A stretch of 64,000 nucleotides of DNA from Acidobacteriaceae bacterium. Its GTDB lineage: Bacteria; Acidobacteriota; Terriglobia; Terriglobales; Acidobacteriaceae. Location: assembly GCA_027449965.1 (NCBI GenBank), contig DAIDKP010000027.1, positions 1 to 64,000 of the forward strand, in the 5' to 3' direction. The notes under the pieces were generated by a model. That model was not told the DNA's origin. It worked only from the letters and a program-made list of their open reading frames with translations, and searched no databases. Shown one piece after another: positions 32,976 through 39,517 of the stretch (position 1 is its first letter; each line of letters opens with the position of its first letter). Both the position numbers and the translations under genes were made by a program.

Positions 32976-33455
32976 TCAAGCCAGCGCCGCCTTCACCGCC
33001 TCGCTCACCACGCGACCCTCCGCCCGCAGCCCACCGGCGGCCAGCCTCGCCTGCACGGCCTTCATCACCGCGCCCATCTCCCGCTGTCCCGGCTTCGCGC
33101 CGCCTGCCGCCGCCACCTCGTCCACAGCCGCCACCACCAGCGCCCGCAGCTCGTCCTCGCCCACAGCCTTCGGCAGAAACTCCTCAATCACCCCGATCTC
33201 CACCGCTTCCTTCGCCGCCAGCTCCGGCCGTCCGCCCTTCGTAAACTGCTCCACCGAATCCCGCCGCTGCTTGATCATCCCGGCCAGCACCTGCTGCGCC
33301 TCAGCCTCCGTCACCGGCTCGGCGCTTTTGGCCCGCTTCTCAATAGCCTTGTTCTTGATCGCCGCCGACACCATCCGCAACGTCGTCGTCCGCTCCCCAT
33401 CCCGCGCCTTCATCGCCACAATCGTCGCCTGCTTCACCGCTTCCTCAATCGTCAC
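32976..33455 (-). CDS. GatB/YqeY-domain protein
   Basis: Stand-alone GatB/YqeY-like protein; the domain is the tRNA-binding tail module of the amidotransferase GatB. The 159-residue product is almost all helical: MKARDGERTTTLRMVSAAIKNKAIEK, then FLPKAVGEDELRALV and GQREMGAVMKAVQARL. Starts with GTG at 33455. Actual role of free YqeY proteins is unclear. Confidence 0.9.
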   Translation of the reverse strand: MTIEEAVKQATIVAMKARDGERTTTLRMVSAAIKNKAIEKRAKSAEPVTEAEAQQVLAGMIKQRRDSVEQFTKGGRPELAAKEAVEIGVIEEFLPKAVGEDELRALVVAAVDEVAAAGGAKPGQREMGAVMKAVQARLAAGGLRAEGRVVSEAVKAALA

Positions 33456-33714: not shown

Positions 33715-34563
33715 ATGAGCCGGAACGTACCAATTTTGTCTACAACCGATGCGCAGGTCGTCGATACTATGCGCGCAGAGATCGAGAAGTCTGAATCAGC
33801 CGGACCACGACGTGCATTTGAAAAGCTTTTGTTGGCGGCGCTCTGCAGCATTCCCTGGGTGGGCATCCTTGTCAGCGCGGCGAAAGACATCAAATCGGAC
33901 GATGATGCGGACCGTCAGAATTACCTCCTAAAGCTGTGGGTTGAGCAGCATCAACGGAAGCTCATGGAGCTTGGACAAATGTTCCAGGAAGTCCAGTCTC
34001 GTTTCGAAAACTTTGGAGAAGAGATCAATGAGCGCATCGAGAGCGATGCGTACTTAGCATTAGTGCGAAAAGCCTTCCGTGCTTGGGATCAATCAGACAC
34101 TCAAGAGAAACGCCGGATGCTGGGCAATATTGTTATCAACGCTGGAAGTACCCGCGTGTGCACCGACGATGTAATTCGCTTATTCATCGACTGGACGGAA
34201 CTCTACAACGAGGTTCACTTCGCCGTGATCCAAGAAATCTTCCACAATCCGGGATCCACTCGCTTCGAAATTTGGTCCGTGATATATGGTGAGTTGCCCC
34301 GAGAAGACTCCGAACAGGCGGACCTCTTCAAATTTCTCGTCAGGGATCTAAGCACCGGTGGGGTAATCCGACAGGAAAGAGACGTAAACAGCCTTGGGCA
34401 GTTTGTAAGGAAAAAGCCAATCAGGAAACGCGGCACTCCGACAACTTTGGAATCAGCCTTTGAAGACTCAAAACCTTATGTGCTCACTCAGTTGGGTCGA
34501 AGCTTCGTCCACTACACGATGAATGAGACCGTCACGAGGCTTTCTGATGAGAACGAGGGATGA
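33715..34563 (+). CDS. Unknown 282-residue protein, probably horizontally acquired
   Basis: I cannot name this family, although its look suggests a conserved one. Residues about 38-60 are hydrophobic (LLLAALCSIPWVGILVSAAKDIK), followed by an amphipathic helical region (KLWVEQHQRKLMELGQMFQEVQSRFENFGEEINERIES), then EKRRMLGNIVINAG and a winged-helix-like C-terminal half (HFAVIQEIFHNPGSTRFEIW...DLFKFLVRDLSTGGVIRQ). Start ATG 33715 with AGGATGTACCC. Codon use is clearly less GC-biased than neighbours on both sides. It stands alone. A membrane-acting or DNA-linked defence role would be a guess. Confidence 0.8.
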   Translation: MSRNVPILSTTDAQVVDTMRAEIEKSESAGPRRAFEKLLLAALCSIPWVGILVSAAKDIKSDDDADRQNYLLKLWVEQHQRKLMELGQMFQEVQSRFENFGEEINERIESDAYLALVRKAFRAWDQSDTQEKRRMLGNIVINAGSTRVCTDDVIRLFIDWTELYNEVHFAVIQEIFHNPGSTRFEIWSVIYGELPREDSEQADLFKFLVRDLSTGGVIRQERDVNSLGQFVRKKPIRKRGTPTTLESAFEDSKPYVLTQLGRSFVHYTMNETVTRLSDENEG

Positions 34564-34770
34564 TGTGCAGAGCCACAGCGGTGATAAGTGACGATAAACG
34601 CCCCTGTCGTCAGTAGCGCGGTCAGTTGGTGCATTATCGCCAAGTCACTCATCGAGGCTGGACAAGTTCCGATAAATTGGGTCGCCGCGTGTCAGAAGCC
34701 GGAACTTCCCCTGCCGACAATCTCCAAACCGCCCACATATCCCCGCGAACCGCTAAAAATCTCCATCCAA

Positions 34771-34799
34771 TTCACATTTATCACATTCCTGTGTATTCT
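34771..34799 (+). promoter_or_regulatory. Putative sigma-70 promoter of the serine genes
   Basis: TTCACA (34771-34776), a 17-base spacer and TATTCT (34794-34799) form a good vegetative promoter about 53 bases ahead of the aminotransferase GTG at 34853. The region is otherwise AT-rich compared with the genes it would drive. Confidence 0.55.
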
Positions 34800-34852
34800 G
34801 TGATTACACCGCCAGCCTCACCGGCGCACCCACCTCGAATGGAGATGCCCTC

Positions 34853-36079
34853 GTGTTCCGCAAAACCCGCCTTTACACCCCCGGTCCCACGCCGCTCCTG
34901 CCAGCCGCCCAGTTCGCCATGGCCTCCGCCGACATACACCACCGCACCGCCGAGTTCCGCGCCCTTTACAGCAAAGTCCTCGCCCAGTTGAAGCAGTTCG
35001 TCGGCACCGAAAACGATGTCATCGTCCTTTCCAGCTCCGGCACCGGTGCCATGGAGGCCGCCGTCAGCAACCTCACCTCGCCCGGCGACCGCGTCCTCGT
35101 CCTCACCGCCGGCAAATTCGGCGAGCGCTGGACCTCGCTCGCCAAGGCCTTCGGCTGCCAGGTCGATCTCGTCTCCGCGCCCTACGGCCAGACCTTCGAT
35201 ACCGCCCAAATCCGCGCCGCGCTCCAGCCCGACACCCGCGCCGTCTTCGTACAGGCCACCGAAACCTCCACCGCCGTCCGCCACTGCATCCAGTCCATCG
35301 CGGAAACCCTCCGCGCCGCCGCGCCCGACGCCCTGCTCGTCGTCGACGCGATCACCGGCCTCGGGACGACGCACTTCGACGTGGACGCCTGGGGCATCGA
35401 CGTGCTCATCGGCGGCTCGCAGAAGGCCGTCATGATCCCGCCCGGCCTAGCTTACCTGAGCGTCAGCCAGCGCGCCTGGGCCGCCATGGAGACCAGCAAA
35501 AATCCGCGTTACTACTTCGACCTGCGCAAGGAGCGCAAGGTCGCGCCGAAGGGCGAAAGCGCCTACACGCCCGCCGTCGCGCTCATCGCCGGTCTCGGTG
35601 CGGCGCTGGACTACATCGCCGGCCAGGCAGGCGGCGATCTGGTCGCCGGACGCAAGCTGCTCATTGAAAACGCCGAAAGCTGCGCCGCCATGACCCGCGC
35701 CGGACTCACCGCGCTCGGCTTCACGCTCTTCGCGCCGGAAGCACCTGCCGCCGCCGCCACAGCCGTCGCCGTTCCCGACGGCATGGACTCCGGAGCCGTC
35801 GTCAAAGCCCTCAAATCCCGCTTCGGCGCCGTCATCGCCAACGGCCAGGGCGAGATGCAGGGCAAGCTCTTCCGCATCGCCCATCTCGGCTTCTTCGACT
35901 ACATGGACACCATCGCCCTGCTCGGCGCGCTTGAGTTCATTGCCCGCGACACGCTCGGCCTTCCCGTCGAATTCGGCTCCGCCGTCGCCGCCGCCCAGCG
36001 GGTCTTCGCCGCTCGCAAGCCCGACGAATCCGCCAGCGCAGCCTGCCTCTGCGGACGCGCCAACTGCGCCCGAAGCTGA
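34853..36079 (+). CDS. Class V aminotransferase, likely for serine synthesis, with Cys-rich tail
   Basis: PLP enzyme of the alanine-glyoxylate/serine-pyruvate aminotransferase group. The 408-residue product begins FRKTRLYTPGPTPLLP, has SSSGTGAMEAAV, the VVDAITGLGTTHFDVD motif, the PLP lysine in IGGSQKAVMIPPGL, and IAHLGFFDYMD near the end. The last 16 residues carry a CLCGRANC cluster not usual in the family. GTG start with GGAG upstream. Standing before serA, it may supply phosphoserine aminotransferase activity in place of SerC, as inferred for similar pairs in other bacteria. Confidence 0.88.
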   Translation: MFRKTRLYTPGPTPLLPAAQFAMASADIHHRTAEFRALYSKVLAQLKQFVGTENDVIVLSSSGTGAMEAAVSNLTSPGDRVLVLTAGKFGERWTSLAKAFGCQVDLVSAPYGQTFDTAQIRAALQPDTRAVFVQATETSTAVRHCIQSIAETLRAAAPDALLVVDAITGLGTTHFDVDAWGIDVLIGGSQKAVMIPPGLAYLSVSQRAWAAMETSKNPRYYFDLRKERKVAPKGESAYTPAVALIAGLGAALDYIAGQAGGDLVAGRKLLIENAESCAAMTRAGLTALGFTLFAPEAPAAAATAVAVPDGMDSGAVVKALKSRFGAVIANGQGEMQGKLFRIAHLGFFDYMDTIALLGALEFIARDTLGLPVEFGSAVAAAQRVFAARKPDESASAACLCGRANCARS

Positions 36080-36098
36080 TCCCTCCAACGAATCGCAG

Positions 36099-36115
36099 GG
36101 GAGGGAAATCCTCCC
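36099..36115 (+). promoter_or_regulatory. Short hairpin between the aminotransferase and the HTH-SerA frame
   Basis: GGGAGG (36099-36104) pairs with CCTCCC (36110-36115) around GAAAT. It lies 30 bases before the ATG at 36145. Function unknown; a CCCTCC copy upstream (36081-36086) could compete for the same arm. Confidence 0.35.
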
Positions 36116-36144
36116 TTCGCGGAAACCGTGCCCCGGAGAAATCC

Positions 36145-37971
36145 ATGCCCGAACTCACCTTCGCTGAAAAGCTCATCCTCGCCCGTCGTCAGCTCGGCCT
36201 TTACCAGTACCAGATGGCCGAAAAGCTCGGCGTACATCCCAACTCCATCTGGAAATACGAGCGCAGCGAGGGTCGTCCGCAACCCTCCGTCGTCCGCCTC
36301 TTTGAGCTTTTCTGCGAACAGAACCAGATCCGCTTCGACGCTTACACCGCCGACACCGCGAAAGGAACTCCCATGAAGATCGTCCTCGCTGAAAAACTCT
36401 CCCCCGCCACGCTCGCCGTCCTCGCCGAGGAGCCGGACTGGAACATCCTCACGCCAGATCAGGTCGCCGCGCTCGACGGTGGTCTGCCCGCGGCTCTCGC
36501 AGATGCCGACGCGCTCATCGTCCGCTCCGCCGTACAGGCCGACGACGCCCTGCTCAGCCACGCCCCGCGCCTGCGCGTCATCGGTCGCGCCGGTGTCGGC
36601 GTGGACAACATTGACACTGACGCCGCCACCCGTCGCGGCATCGTCGTCATGAACACCCCCGGTGCCAACGCCGTCGCCGTCGCCGAGCTCACCCTCGCCA
36701 TGATGATCGCGCTCGCCCGCAAGCTCGCCATCGCCAACGCCTCGCTCCACGCCGGCAAATGGGAGAAGAAATCCCTGCAAGGCACCGAGCTGCGCGGCAA
36801 AACTCTCGCCATCCTCGGCCTCGGTCGCATCGGCCTCGAGGTCGCCCGTCGCGCCCGCGCCTTCGGCATGGAACTCGTCGGCCACGATCCCTTCGTCTCG
36901 CCCGCCGTCGCCCGCGAAACCGGCATCCGCCTCGTCACCCTTGAAGAACTCTTCCAGGCAGCCGACTACCTCACGCTACACGTCGGCCTCACGCCGCAAA
37001 CTCAGGGCATCATCAACCCGCGCACCCTCGCCACCATGAAAAAAGGCGTGCGCATCCTCAACTGTGCGCGCGGCGAACTTATCGAAGAAGCTGCGCTCGC
37101 CGACGCGCTCACCTCCGGCCACGTCGCCGGTGCCGCGCTCGATGTCTTCGCCTCGGAGCCGCTCAAAGACTCGCCATTCTTCGCCATGCCCAACGTCCTG
37201 CTCACGCCTCACATCGCCGGTTCCACCGACGAAGCGCAGGAGGCCGTCGGCATTCAGATCGCCCGCCAGGTCCGCGATTATCTTCGCCTCGGCGTCGTCC
37301 AGAACGCCGTCAACGTCACCTCGCTCACCCACGAGGAGTACGTCCAGCTCGCGCCCTTCATCGAACTCGCCGACCGTCTCGGCCAATTCCTCTCTCAGGC
37401 CGCCACGCGCAGCATCGAGAGCATCGAACTCACCTACTCCGGCCTGCTCGCCGAGAGCAAAACCGAACTGCTCCGCAACGCCGCCATCGCCGGCCTGCTC
37501 ACCGGCTCGGAAAACGTCAACCGCATCAACGCCGCCGCCCTCGCCGCCGAGCGCGGCATACGCCTCCACGAGGAGCAGCAATCCTCCGCACGCGGAGCCG
37601 ACGCGCTCCGCATCACCATCCGCGACGCACACGGCTCCAGCACCGTCGTCGGCACCGTCCTCCACGGTGAGCAAACGCGACTCATCGAACTCGACGGCCT
37701 CGACCTCGAATCCCCGCTCGAAGGCACTCTGCTCGTCTGCCGCAACCGCGACGTGCCCGGCGTCATCGGCAACATCGGCACCGTCCTCGGCCACCAGGGC
37801 GTCAACATCGCCAACTTCGCCCTCGGTCGCGAGCACCGCGCGTCCGGCGCGGGCGCACCCGTCAAAGCGCTCTCCGTCGTACAGATCGATGAACCCGTCG
37901 CCCCCACTCTGCTCGACGAACTGGCCAAAGTCCCCAACCTGCTCGAAGCCCGCCTCGTCCGACTGAGTTAG
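36145..37971 (+). CDS. serA: XRE helix-turn-helix domain in one frame with D-3-phosphoglycerate dehydrogenase (SerA)
   Basis: SerA oxidises 3-phosphoglycerate in the first step of serine synthesis. From ATG 36373 the 532-residue part is a full long-form SerA: substrate domain, NAD-binding LGLGRIGLEVA (G149-x-G-x2-G154), active-site NCARGELIEE, SEPL and LTPHIAGST, an intervening domain and a C-terminal ACT domain (RNRDVPGVIGNIGTVLGHQGVNIANF). Without any stop, the frame continues upstream to ATG 36145 (RBS CCGGAGAAATCC), adding 76 residues with an XRE HTH (LGLYQYQMAEKLGVHPNSIWKYE). A good internal site (AAAGGAACTCCC) precedes 36373. So either a fusion protein of 608 residues, a normal SerA, or both may be made. 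Confidence 0.93.
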   Translation: MPELTFAEKLILARRQLGLYQYQMAEKLGVHPNSIWKYERSEGRPQPSVVRLFELFCEQNQIRFDAYTADTAKGTPMKIVLAEKLSPATLAVLAEEPDWNILTPDQVAALDGGLPAALADADALIVRSAVQADDALLSHAPRLRVIGRAGVGVDNIDTDAATRRGIVVMNTPGANAVAVAELTLAMMIALARKLAIANASLHAGKWEKKSLQGTELRGKTLAILGLGRIGLEVARRARAFGMELVGHDPFVSPAVARETGIRLVTLEELFQAADYLTLHVGLTPQTQGIINPRTLATMKKGVRILNCARGELIEEAALADALTSGHVAGAALDVFASEPLKDSPFFAMPNVLLTPHIAGSTDEAQEAVGIQIARQVRDYLRLGVVQNAVNVTSLTHEEYVQLAPFIELADRLGQFLSQAATRSIESIELTYSGLLAESKTELLRNAAIAGLLTGSENVNRINAAALAAERGIRLHEEQQSSARGADALRITIRDAHGSSTVVGTVLHGEQTRLIELDGLDLESPLEGTLLVCRNRDVPGVIGNIGTVLGHQGVNIANFALGREHRASGAGAPVKALSVVQIDEPVAPTLLDELAKVPNLLEARLVRLS

Positions 37972-38010
37972 CTCTCGCTCGGCCAAACCAACCGACCACC
38001 AGCAACAGAA

Positions 38011-38039
38011 CAGCCGCCGGAGTCCTCGCCCGGCGGCTG
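38011..38039 (+). terminator. Terminator after serA
   Basis: CAGCCGCCGG (38011-38020) pairs perfectly with CCGGCGGCTG (38030-38039) across nine bases; CTTCGTTTTCC follows on the plus strand. It separates serA from the convergent phosphohexomutase gene. Confidence 0.75.
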
Positions 38040-38068
38040 CTTCGTTTTCCAGCTTCTGTCCGCGTGTC

Positions 38069-39517
38069 TCACCCGCGCAGCGCAAACTCCCGCCCAGCCT
38101 CCAGCAGCTTCTCCACCGACTCCCGCGAGCAGCTTTCGCAGTAGACGCGCATCAGCGGCTCGGTCCCGCTCGCCCGCAGCAGCAGCCACGTTTCCGCTGC
38201 GCGCGGCTTCGCTGCCGCCTCCGGATTGCGCAGGAAAAACTTCACCCCGTCCATCGTCTCCACGCGCTCAATCTCCATGCCCGCAAACGCAGCCTCGCCC
38301 GCACGCAGCGCGCGCGCCCGCTCCACTGCGCTCCGCTTCACTTCCTCGCTCAGATGCAGATCGATCCGCCCATACTGGTGCTCGCCATACTCGGCCTGCA
38401 ACTCGCTCACCAGCTCGCCCAGCGTCTTGCCTTCCTCGGCCATCACATTCGCCAGCAACAGCGCATTCAGAATTCCATCCCGCTCCGGCAAGTGCCGCTG
38501 AAATCCAATCCCACCCGACTCCTCGCCGCCCATCACAATCTCACCCGCCAGCATGTAGTCCACCACATACTTGAACCCGATCCCATGCTCATGCAGCCTG
38601 CGTCCATGCCGCTCGCAGATCCGATCCAGCATCTTCGTCGTATTGAACGCACGCGTCACATCGCCCGCCCATCCTCGCCGTTTCAGAACCCACTCCAGCA
38701 GCACGCTGTAAATCTTGTGCGGGTCCACAAAATTCCCATGCTCATCCGTCGCGCCAATCCTGTCCGCGTCCCCATCCGTACACAATCCCGCATCGCACCC
38801 GTGCTCGACCACCGCCTCGCCCAGCGCGCGAATATGCGGCTCGATAGGCTCCGGATGCACGCCTCCAAACAGCGGATCCACATCGCCGCGAATCTGAACA
38901 TACTCCACTCCAATGCGATCAAAAATCCCCGCAATCAGCCGCCGCCCCGCGCCATGCATCGAGTCAATCGCAAACCGCCGCCCGCAGCGCGCAATCGCGT
39001 CCAGATCGACAAATTTCTCGACAGCCCGCATATACGGCGCAATGAAATCCACGCGCTCGATTTGTCCCGCCTGCGCCGCTCGCGCGACCGGCTCGCCCAG
39101 CCGCGCTTCAATCGCGCGTATGATCTCCGGACTCCCCGACCCGCCGTACCATGCCTTATATTTCATCCCGTTCCACTGGCACGGATTGTGCGACGACGTA
39201 ATCATCACTCCGCCCGCAGCGCCGCGATCCCTCACCGCCATCGACAGCGCCGGCGTCGGCGTCACTGCGTCAGCGAGTGCCACGGCAATCCCCGCCGCGC
39301 TCAGCTCCTCGGCGCACGCCAGCGCAAACTGCGCCGACAGAAATCGCGAATCATACGCAACGCAAACCCCGCGTCCCGCCTGCTCGCGCGGGTCGTCACT
39401 CGCCAGCAGATACGCCGCAATCGCACGCGCCGCCACGCGAACATTGGCAAACGTAAAATCCTCGGCCATCACGCCGCGCCAGCCATCCGTGCCAAACCGT
39501 ATCGTCGCCTGTTCCAT
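38069..39517 (-). CDS. Phosphoglucomutase/phosphomannomutase family protein
   Basis: Alpha-D-phosphohexomutase, interconverting 1- and 6-phosphates of glucose or mannose. The 482-residue product has all four loops: phosphoserine S109 in TSSHNP, metal loop CTDGDADR, sugar loop GGEESGG and phosphate loop RASGTEP. It follows galU after 42 bases on the same strand, so together they probably turn glucose-6-phosphate into UDP-glucose, the donor used by OtsA and cell-surface sugars. Precise sugar specificity not decided. Confidence 0.93.
   Translation of the reverse strand: MEQATIRFGTDGWRGVMAEDFTFANVRVAARAIAAYLLASDDPREQAGRGVCVAYDSRFLSAQFALACAEELSAAGIAVALADAVTPTPALSMAVRDRGAAGGVMITSSHNPCQWNGMKYKAWYGGSGSPEIIRAIEARLGEPVARAAQAGQIERVDFIAPYMRAVEKFVDLDAIARCGRRFAIDSMHGAGRRLIAGIFDRIGVEYVQIRGDVDPLFGGVHPEPIEPHIRALGEAVVEHGCDAGLCTDGDADRIGATDEHGNFVDPHKIYSVLLEWVLKRRGWAGDVTRAFNTTKMLDRICERHGRRLHEHGIGFKYVVDYMLAGEIVMGGEESGGIGFQRHLPERDGILNALLLANVMAEEGKTLGELVSELQAEYGEHQYGRIDLHLSEEVKRSAVERARALRAGEAAFAGMEIERVETMDGVKFFLRNPEAAAKPRAAETWLLLRASGTEPLMRVYCESCSRESVEKLLEAGREFALRG

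Follow-up and report, generated by a model that had tools for sequence, protein, structure and literature searches.

The gene at 36145–37971 (+) of the window, the 64,000-nucleotide stretch of Acidobacteriaceae DNA analysed here, encodes phosphoglycerate dehydrogenase (SerA) joined to an N-terminal helix-turn-helix (HTH) domain, and comparison with related genomes suggests, with a probability of about 0.8, that this protein acts in serine synthesis as a 'trigger enzyme', an enzyme-repressor with a single target, made from two translation starts, whose long form represses its own operon. In the mechanism we propose, the two starts would yield HTH-SerA as the long form and free SerA enzyme as the short one, and long subunits assembled in the SerA oligomer would bind an operator of four half-sites upstream of the operon. 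Binding would cover the promoter shared by an aminotransferase gene and the fusion gene and shut off their transcription. Long and short subunits would mix, the mixing would set the strength of repression, and the ACT domain of SerA would couple DNA binding to serine. That the enzyme controls its own gene in some way appears very probable from the distribution of fusion and operator.

The HTH-SerA fusion, its origin and its conservation

Translation of 36145–37971 gives 608 residues without a stop, in agreement with the sequence-only reading, which had proposed an open frame from ATG 36145 to the end of SerA; the frame is also open for 70 codons upstream of 36145. Residues 1–67 (36145–36345, +) contain an XRE-type HTH domain with its recognition helix at approximately residues 31–40. 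The Pfam HTH_3 match to residues 13–52 (28.8 bits, cut-off 23) is that expected of an XRE protein and bears out the earlier assignment of the 76 additional residues to such a domain. A variable linker (residues 68–76, 36346–36372, +) leads to SerA, a type I phosphoglycerate dehydrogenase (residues 77–608, 36373–37971, +), with which the predicted short form begins. The Pfam domains 2-Hacid_dh, 2-Hacid_dh_C, PGDH_inter and ACT all fall within residues 77–608, giving the complete set of the type I enzyme (substrate, NAD, intervening and ACT domains), and the NCBIfam phosphoglycerate dehydrogenase model TIGR01327 matches residues 78–607 with 563 bits (cut-off 454). The C-terminal ACT domain that had been read from the sequence lies at residues 529–597 (37729–37935, +; 31 bits, Pfam cut-off 27). 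One chain, as in known trigger enzymes, combines a complete metabolic enzyme with a DNA-binding domain.

The same architecture, sought in relatives as the sequence-only reading had proposed, is present in 58 distinct loci, counting that of the window, which come from three related genera of the Acidobacteriaceae. These were collapsed from 85 fusion loci and comprise 13 from the window's genus, one (L090) from genus g3 and 44 placed with genus g9 by tree or handle. None of the 58 carries a stop or frameshift between HTH and SerA, the kind of disruption that had been named as evidence against the fusion. Among a set of 61 genomes, the fusion occurs wherever SerA was found in the window's genus (13 of 15 genomes; G007 and G010 gave no SerA match) and in the single g9 genome of the set, while g3 shows a fragment at a contig end. 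Across 200 genomes of the order, some HTH match was seen in 40; it is strong in 33 (at least 91 bits, in open frames of at least 606 codons; 7 from the window's genus and 26 from g9) and the 7 further genomes have weak matches only. A phylum-wide search of 396 genomes for the origin of the HTH gave 5 matching genomes at E 1e-6, all in the two genera already known to carry it. Contig-level relatives (the best 80 of 276) include the isolate Occallatibacter savannae (L074), whose SerA groups with g9 on the tree. SerA without the HTH is found in loci of Silvibacterium, Granulicella, Edaphobacter, Terriglobus and others.

A SerA tree of 95 rows places all 43 fusion rows in a single clade (SH-aLRT 100), whose one other member is row L099; its sequence starts 8 bases upstream of the SerA start and is too short there to show an HTH, and it was labelled non-fusion on the tree and left out of the comparison of ACT residues. 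Where a row of the clade lacks a full HTH (L098, L099 and the fragment of G016), a contig end truncates it. Both fusion and operator are missing from L016, the nearest outgroup row, and by the branching of these sequences the fusion has a single origin. An assembly artefact was considered and rejected because many assemblies carry the fusion, including the one-contig assemblies G132 and G146 and that of the isolate O. savannae.

Comparison of the aligned sequences indicates that the HTH is under purifying selection and is as conserved as the enzyme. Residues such as H31, N33, S34, Y38, E39, G43, R51, C57 and F64 are invariant in all 58 loci, while the linker differs among loci in both length and sequence. 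Median dN/dS for the HTH is 0.067 in the window's genus and 0.084 in the Occallatibacter-type genus, against 0.106 and 0.110 for SerA, values that are rough because synonymous sites are near saturation (mean pS 0.54–0.63); pairs that could not be used for the HTH were excluded (13 of 78 and 42 of 946), and L090, from the third genus, belongs to neither group. Constraint on the HTH is matched by that on the first 67 residues of SerA in the larger genus (dN/dS 0.084 and 0.087, respectively). Loss of HTH conservation had been named beforehand as grounds for doubting the fusion; what is observed is a nearly invariant core and a dN/dS not above that of SerA.

Two predicted translation starts

The HTH start is preceded by a Shine-Dalgarno sequence, GGAG, at 36135–36138 (+), and is ATG at the 36145 codon in 55 of the 58 distinct loci, the other three (two ATG, one GTG) beginning one codon later; both this Shine-Dalgarno sequence and the reading frame of the HTH are conserved across fusion loci. 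The internal start, Met77 (ATG 36373), is ATG in all 58. The good internal ribosome binding site that the sequence-only reading had noted before 36373 is indeed present as AAAGGA at 36361–36366 (+), and it is conserved, being kept at the synonymous level. A Lys-Gly pair stands at a fixed distance before Met77, within an otherwise drifting linker. The codon of Gly74 is GGA or GGG in 52 of 56 cases, compared with 694 of 3000 for Gly over the remainder of SerA, and the same bias holds within exact Lys-Gly pairs (GGA or GGG in 46 of 50 before Met77, 6 of 95 elsewhere in SerA). Seven rows have no Lys before Gly74, and six of them use another all-purine codon there.

This pattern is also seen in the predicted pairing with the anti-Shine-Dalgarno sequence, for which the mean at the internal start is -7.51 kcal/mol versus -5.67 kcal/mol under synonymous resampling, with 48 of 58 rows ranking in the top 25% of their own resampled sets. 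The corresponding values are -2.12 kcal/mol at 385 other internal Met codons, -5.91 kcal/mol at the HTH start and -5.87 kcal/mol at the starts of 34 non-fusion SerA genes, a few of which are out of register. A score based on match length showed no real difference (4.29 versus 4.17 under synonymous resampling), since most Lys-Gly codon pairs yield AAGG anyway. Taken together, the Gly-codon bias and the pairing energy suggest that the internal start is maintained by selection on the RNA. Very probably, one gene yields both the long HTH-SerA and the short SerA, and the strength of the internal site indicates that the short form is probably plentiful.

By eye, the spacers between aminotransferase and HTH in seven loci (L094, L095, L117, L010, L039, L048 and L085) contain runs of repeats of about 7 bp, with CTAGAAG-like or GTGAACT-like units and inverted copies upstream. 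The last unit often contains the Shine-Dalgarno sequence of the HTH start, so that synthesis of the long form could be restricted by a hairpin. Lengths of this spacer were obtained for 57 loci, where two values (-1833 and -23) are artefacts of the stop search.

The serine-synthesis operon and its putative operator

The fusion gene is preceded by a class V aminotransferase gene (34853–36079, +), the first gene of the operon, from which it is separated by 65 bases, and no terminator-like site was found between the two. The aminotransferase, on its presumed substrate, is probably the phosphoserine aminotransferase step, and the operon would then probably comprise the first two steps of serine synthesis. 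SerB is encoded elsewhere in the window's genome (216 bits; assembly completeness 94.85%). No second SerA was found in this genome, the sole other match at E 0.001 being a 38% identical stretch over query residues 209–381. No protein of the genome exceeds the cut-off of the SerC model TIGR01364, and the sole match, at 28.9 bits, is the operon aminotransferase itself; this does not prove that SerC is absent, because the model exceeds its cut-off in only 4 of 14 control genomes. The nearest NCBIfam model to the aminotransferase is BhcA-like, below cut-off, and the protein encoded beside SerA may replace SerC. Between 34500 and 38100 there is no Rfam match at E 0.1 that would point to regulation by RNA. 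Upstream, an ORF that encodes 282 residues and matches no Pfam family (33715–34563, +) lies between a YqeY gene (32976–33455, -) and the operon; in some relatives YqeY-like sequence apparently adjoins the operator directly, as judged by eye.

The putative operator is a 30-bp inverted repeat with four half-sites, CACA-N5-CACA-N4-TGTG-N5-TGTG, at 34773–34802 (+), upstream of the aminotransferase. Inside it is a sigma-70-like promoter, TTCACA-17-TATTCT (34771–34799, +), both hexamers and the spacer of which are overlain by the repeat; across 34560–38100 this is the one promoter-like site found, against 0.2 expected. The region 34,770–34,850, guessed earlier from the sequence as the target of the long form, therefore holds a conserved palindrome that tracks the fusion. 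The region is available for 51 distinct fusion loci, 40 of which match all 16 fixed bases and 10 of which miss one; in the 51st, L039, the motif is cut by the end of the locus. Non-fusion relatives have a different sequence at this position, with the motif in 0 of 30 promoters (5 mismatches at best), and 1020 shuffled promoters reached 3 mismatches at best, once. Conservation is 98.75% in the half-site columns, 73% in the spacers and 38% in the flanks, with a spacing that is fixed in all 50 complete motifs, although part of this conservation is that of the promoter.

A scan of 300 genomes of the family, allowing one mismatch and fixing TA after the third half-site, found the pattern in 35 genomes, at one place each and in three of 79 genera (13 of 15, 2 of 3 and 20 of 20 genomes, respectively); the reversed pattern was found in none of the 300. 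The fusion is present in each of these 35 genomes, in G016 as a fragment cut off by a contig end. The three genomes of the same genera without the operator (G007, G010 and G268) gave no SerA match at E 1e-40, and the other 262 operator-free genomes belong to other genera, in part of which the HTH was searched for. All 30 operator loci that were fetched lie just upstream of the aminotransferase, and the remaining five places are, by their coordinates, 1.2–1.5 kb upstream of the HTH. When up to two mismatches were allowed in 10 genomes, each had one perfect place, none had a place with exactly one mismatch, and 11 others with two mismatches were spread over 7 of the 10; these were treated as chance and not as further targets. 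Since the genomes are related, the co-occurrence of fusion and operator amounts to one gain of both, not many. Genome comparison thus points to a conserved site on the promoter of the enzyme's own pathway, as in trigger enzymes.

A palindrome upstream of its own transcription unit also suits an XRE protein, and passages of PMC12565409 describe such proteins as often autoregulatory on palindromes. The spacing of the half-sites is unusual, with adjacent ones 8–9 bp apart, which is under one helical turn. Half-sites 1 and 3, and likewise 2 and 4, are however each 13 bp apart, within the 12–14 bp given for predicted XRE complexes in part of that source (PMC12565409), so that two interleaved dimer sites are one possible reading. 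The half-sites occur in the order TCACA ... TGTGA, the reverse of a CRP-type site, and CRP was rejected as the owner of the palindrome. The CRP-type site is TGTGA-N6-TCACA.

Proposed repression by HTH-SerA and comparison with known systems

We infer that the operator is bound by HTH-SerA, that this binding is repressive and that long and short subunits mix; the position of the operator over the sole promoter-like site fits repression. Enzymes of the SerA family form tetramers, according to passages of PMC6300728, and the presence of four half-sites suggests that as many as four HTHs could reach the site on a single tetramer. A more detailed version, which we consider possible but less likely than not, is that the four HTHs of a tetramer occupy the four half-sites, that the ratio of long to short subunits from the two starts tunes the number of HTHs per tetramer, and that serine at the ACT interface switches activity and repression together. 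If true, such an enzyme-repressor of serine synthesis would contain its own dosage dial.

Coupling of DNA binding to serine through the ACT domain is the least certain part of the mechanism, with roughly even odds. In the M. tuberculosis enzyme, serine is bound at the ACT interface by Tyr461, Asp463 and Asn481, as described in part of PMC6300728. The counterparts of Asp463 and Asn481 (Asp536 and Asn554) are kept in all 43 fusion rows, and that of Tyr461 is Asn534 in 42 of 43. Two of the three contacts are kept, and the residues are alike whether or not SerA carries the HTH, which makes serine a reasonable guess for the signal and no more than that. Beside the ACT effector loop, Cys532 (37738–37740) is present in 43 of 43 fusion rows, and its place is taken by Ile, Leu or Met in 47 of 51 rows without the fusion.

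Other explanations may account for parts of these observations. The long form might bind the operator yet activate transcription, or act as a plain homeostat that answers to no small molecule; the co-occurrence of fusion and operator does not tell activation from repression, and SerA with the HTH has the same ACT contact residues as SerA without it. We nevertheless consider this unlikely, as the only promoter-like site is overlain in both of its hexamers and in its spacer. A position of this kind is a usual one for a repressor site.

Repression by HTH-SerA itself has also to be weighed against an unlinked regulator, gained in the same ancestor, that binds the palindrome while the HTH of SerA does something else. 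Only co-occurrence and position tie the HTH to the site, a pattern that any co-inherited protein would give, and L093 has a perfect operator despite replacement of Lys37 by Asn. This explanation is very improbable given a single site per genome, on the very operon that encodes the HTH, the frequent autoregulation of XRE proteins on palindromes (passages of PMC12565409) and the lack of both fusion and operator in the nearest outgroup, L016. It is hardly credible that the HTH binds no DNA, or that the long form is hardly made and only the short SerA matters: pairing is stronger at the internal start than at the HTH start (-7.5 versus -5.9 kcal/mol), so that the short form may prevail, but the HTH core is nearly invariant while the linker drifts, its dN/dS is not above that of SerA, and the operator has been retained together with the HTH.

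As an enzyme, HTH-SerA resembles the type I phosphoglycerate dehydrogenase of M. tuberculosis (1YGY/3DC2), to which it aligns over query residues 79–573 with the same four domains; it differs from it in the 76 additional N-terminal residues with the HTH and in the change of Tyr461 to Asn534. CtBP chains are among the matches of the SerA sequence search. The CtBP co-repressors belong to the same dehydrogenase superfamily and act in transcriptional repression; they occur in animals and are not known to have a DNA-binding domain themselves.

The nearest solved HTH by sequence is that of the MqsA antitoxin (3FMY, 2KZ8 and 3GN5; E 0.0007). In the MqsA chain 2KZ8 (131 residues), positions 97 and 101 are the ones to which N33 and K37 of the fusion align, and Asn97 and Arg101 of MqsA are important for DNA binding according to a passage of PMC5422877. 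N33 is found in 58 of 58 fusion loci and K37 in 57, the exception being L093, which has Asn at this one of the two matched contact positions and retains its perfect operator. MqsA and HTH-SerA share the HTH part alone. An MqsA-type antitoxin was rejected, as the PF15731 match covers only positions 72–120 of 131, below cut-off, and the HTH has as neighbours an aminotransferase and SerA, not a toxin gene.

Few enzymes directly control their own genes. A search of the open-access literature found no published HTH-SerA fusion and no SerA regulator of serine synthesis, which is weak evidence that none has been published. The fusion offers a natural comparison between close relatives, some of which have the HTH and the operator around the same enzyme while others lack them. 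This provides a system for testing how an allosteric enzyme turned into a transcription regulator and how an internal translation start splits the labour between enzyme and regulator, and it bears on the control of serine synthesis in a common, little-studied soil phylum.

The class of trigger enzymes is known (PutA, BirA and NadR); what is new here is the putative operator at the HTH-SerA operon. The trigger enzymes of E. coli named in passages of PMC8249747 are BirA, NadR, PepA, PutA and PyrH, and PutA is described there as binding only the putA–putP spacer, its own promoter region. HTH-SerA would be like these five in being a metabolic enzyme that also regulates transcription of its own pathway. 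It differs from them in acting at the entry step of serine synthesis, in its XRE-type HTH and four-half-site operator, and in a second start that predicts an HTH-free form of the same enzyme.
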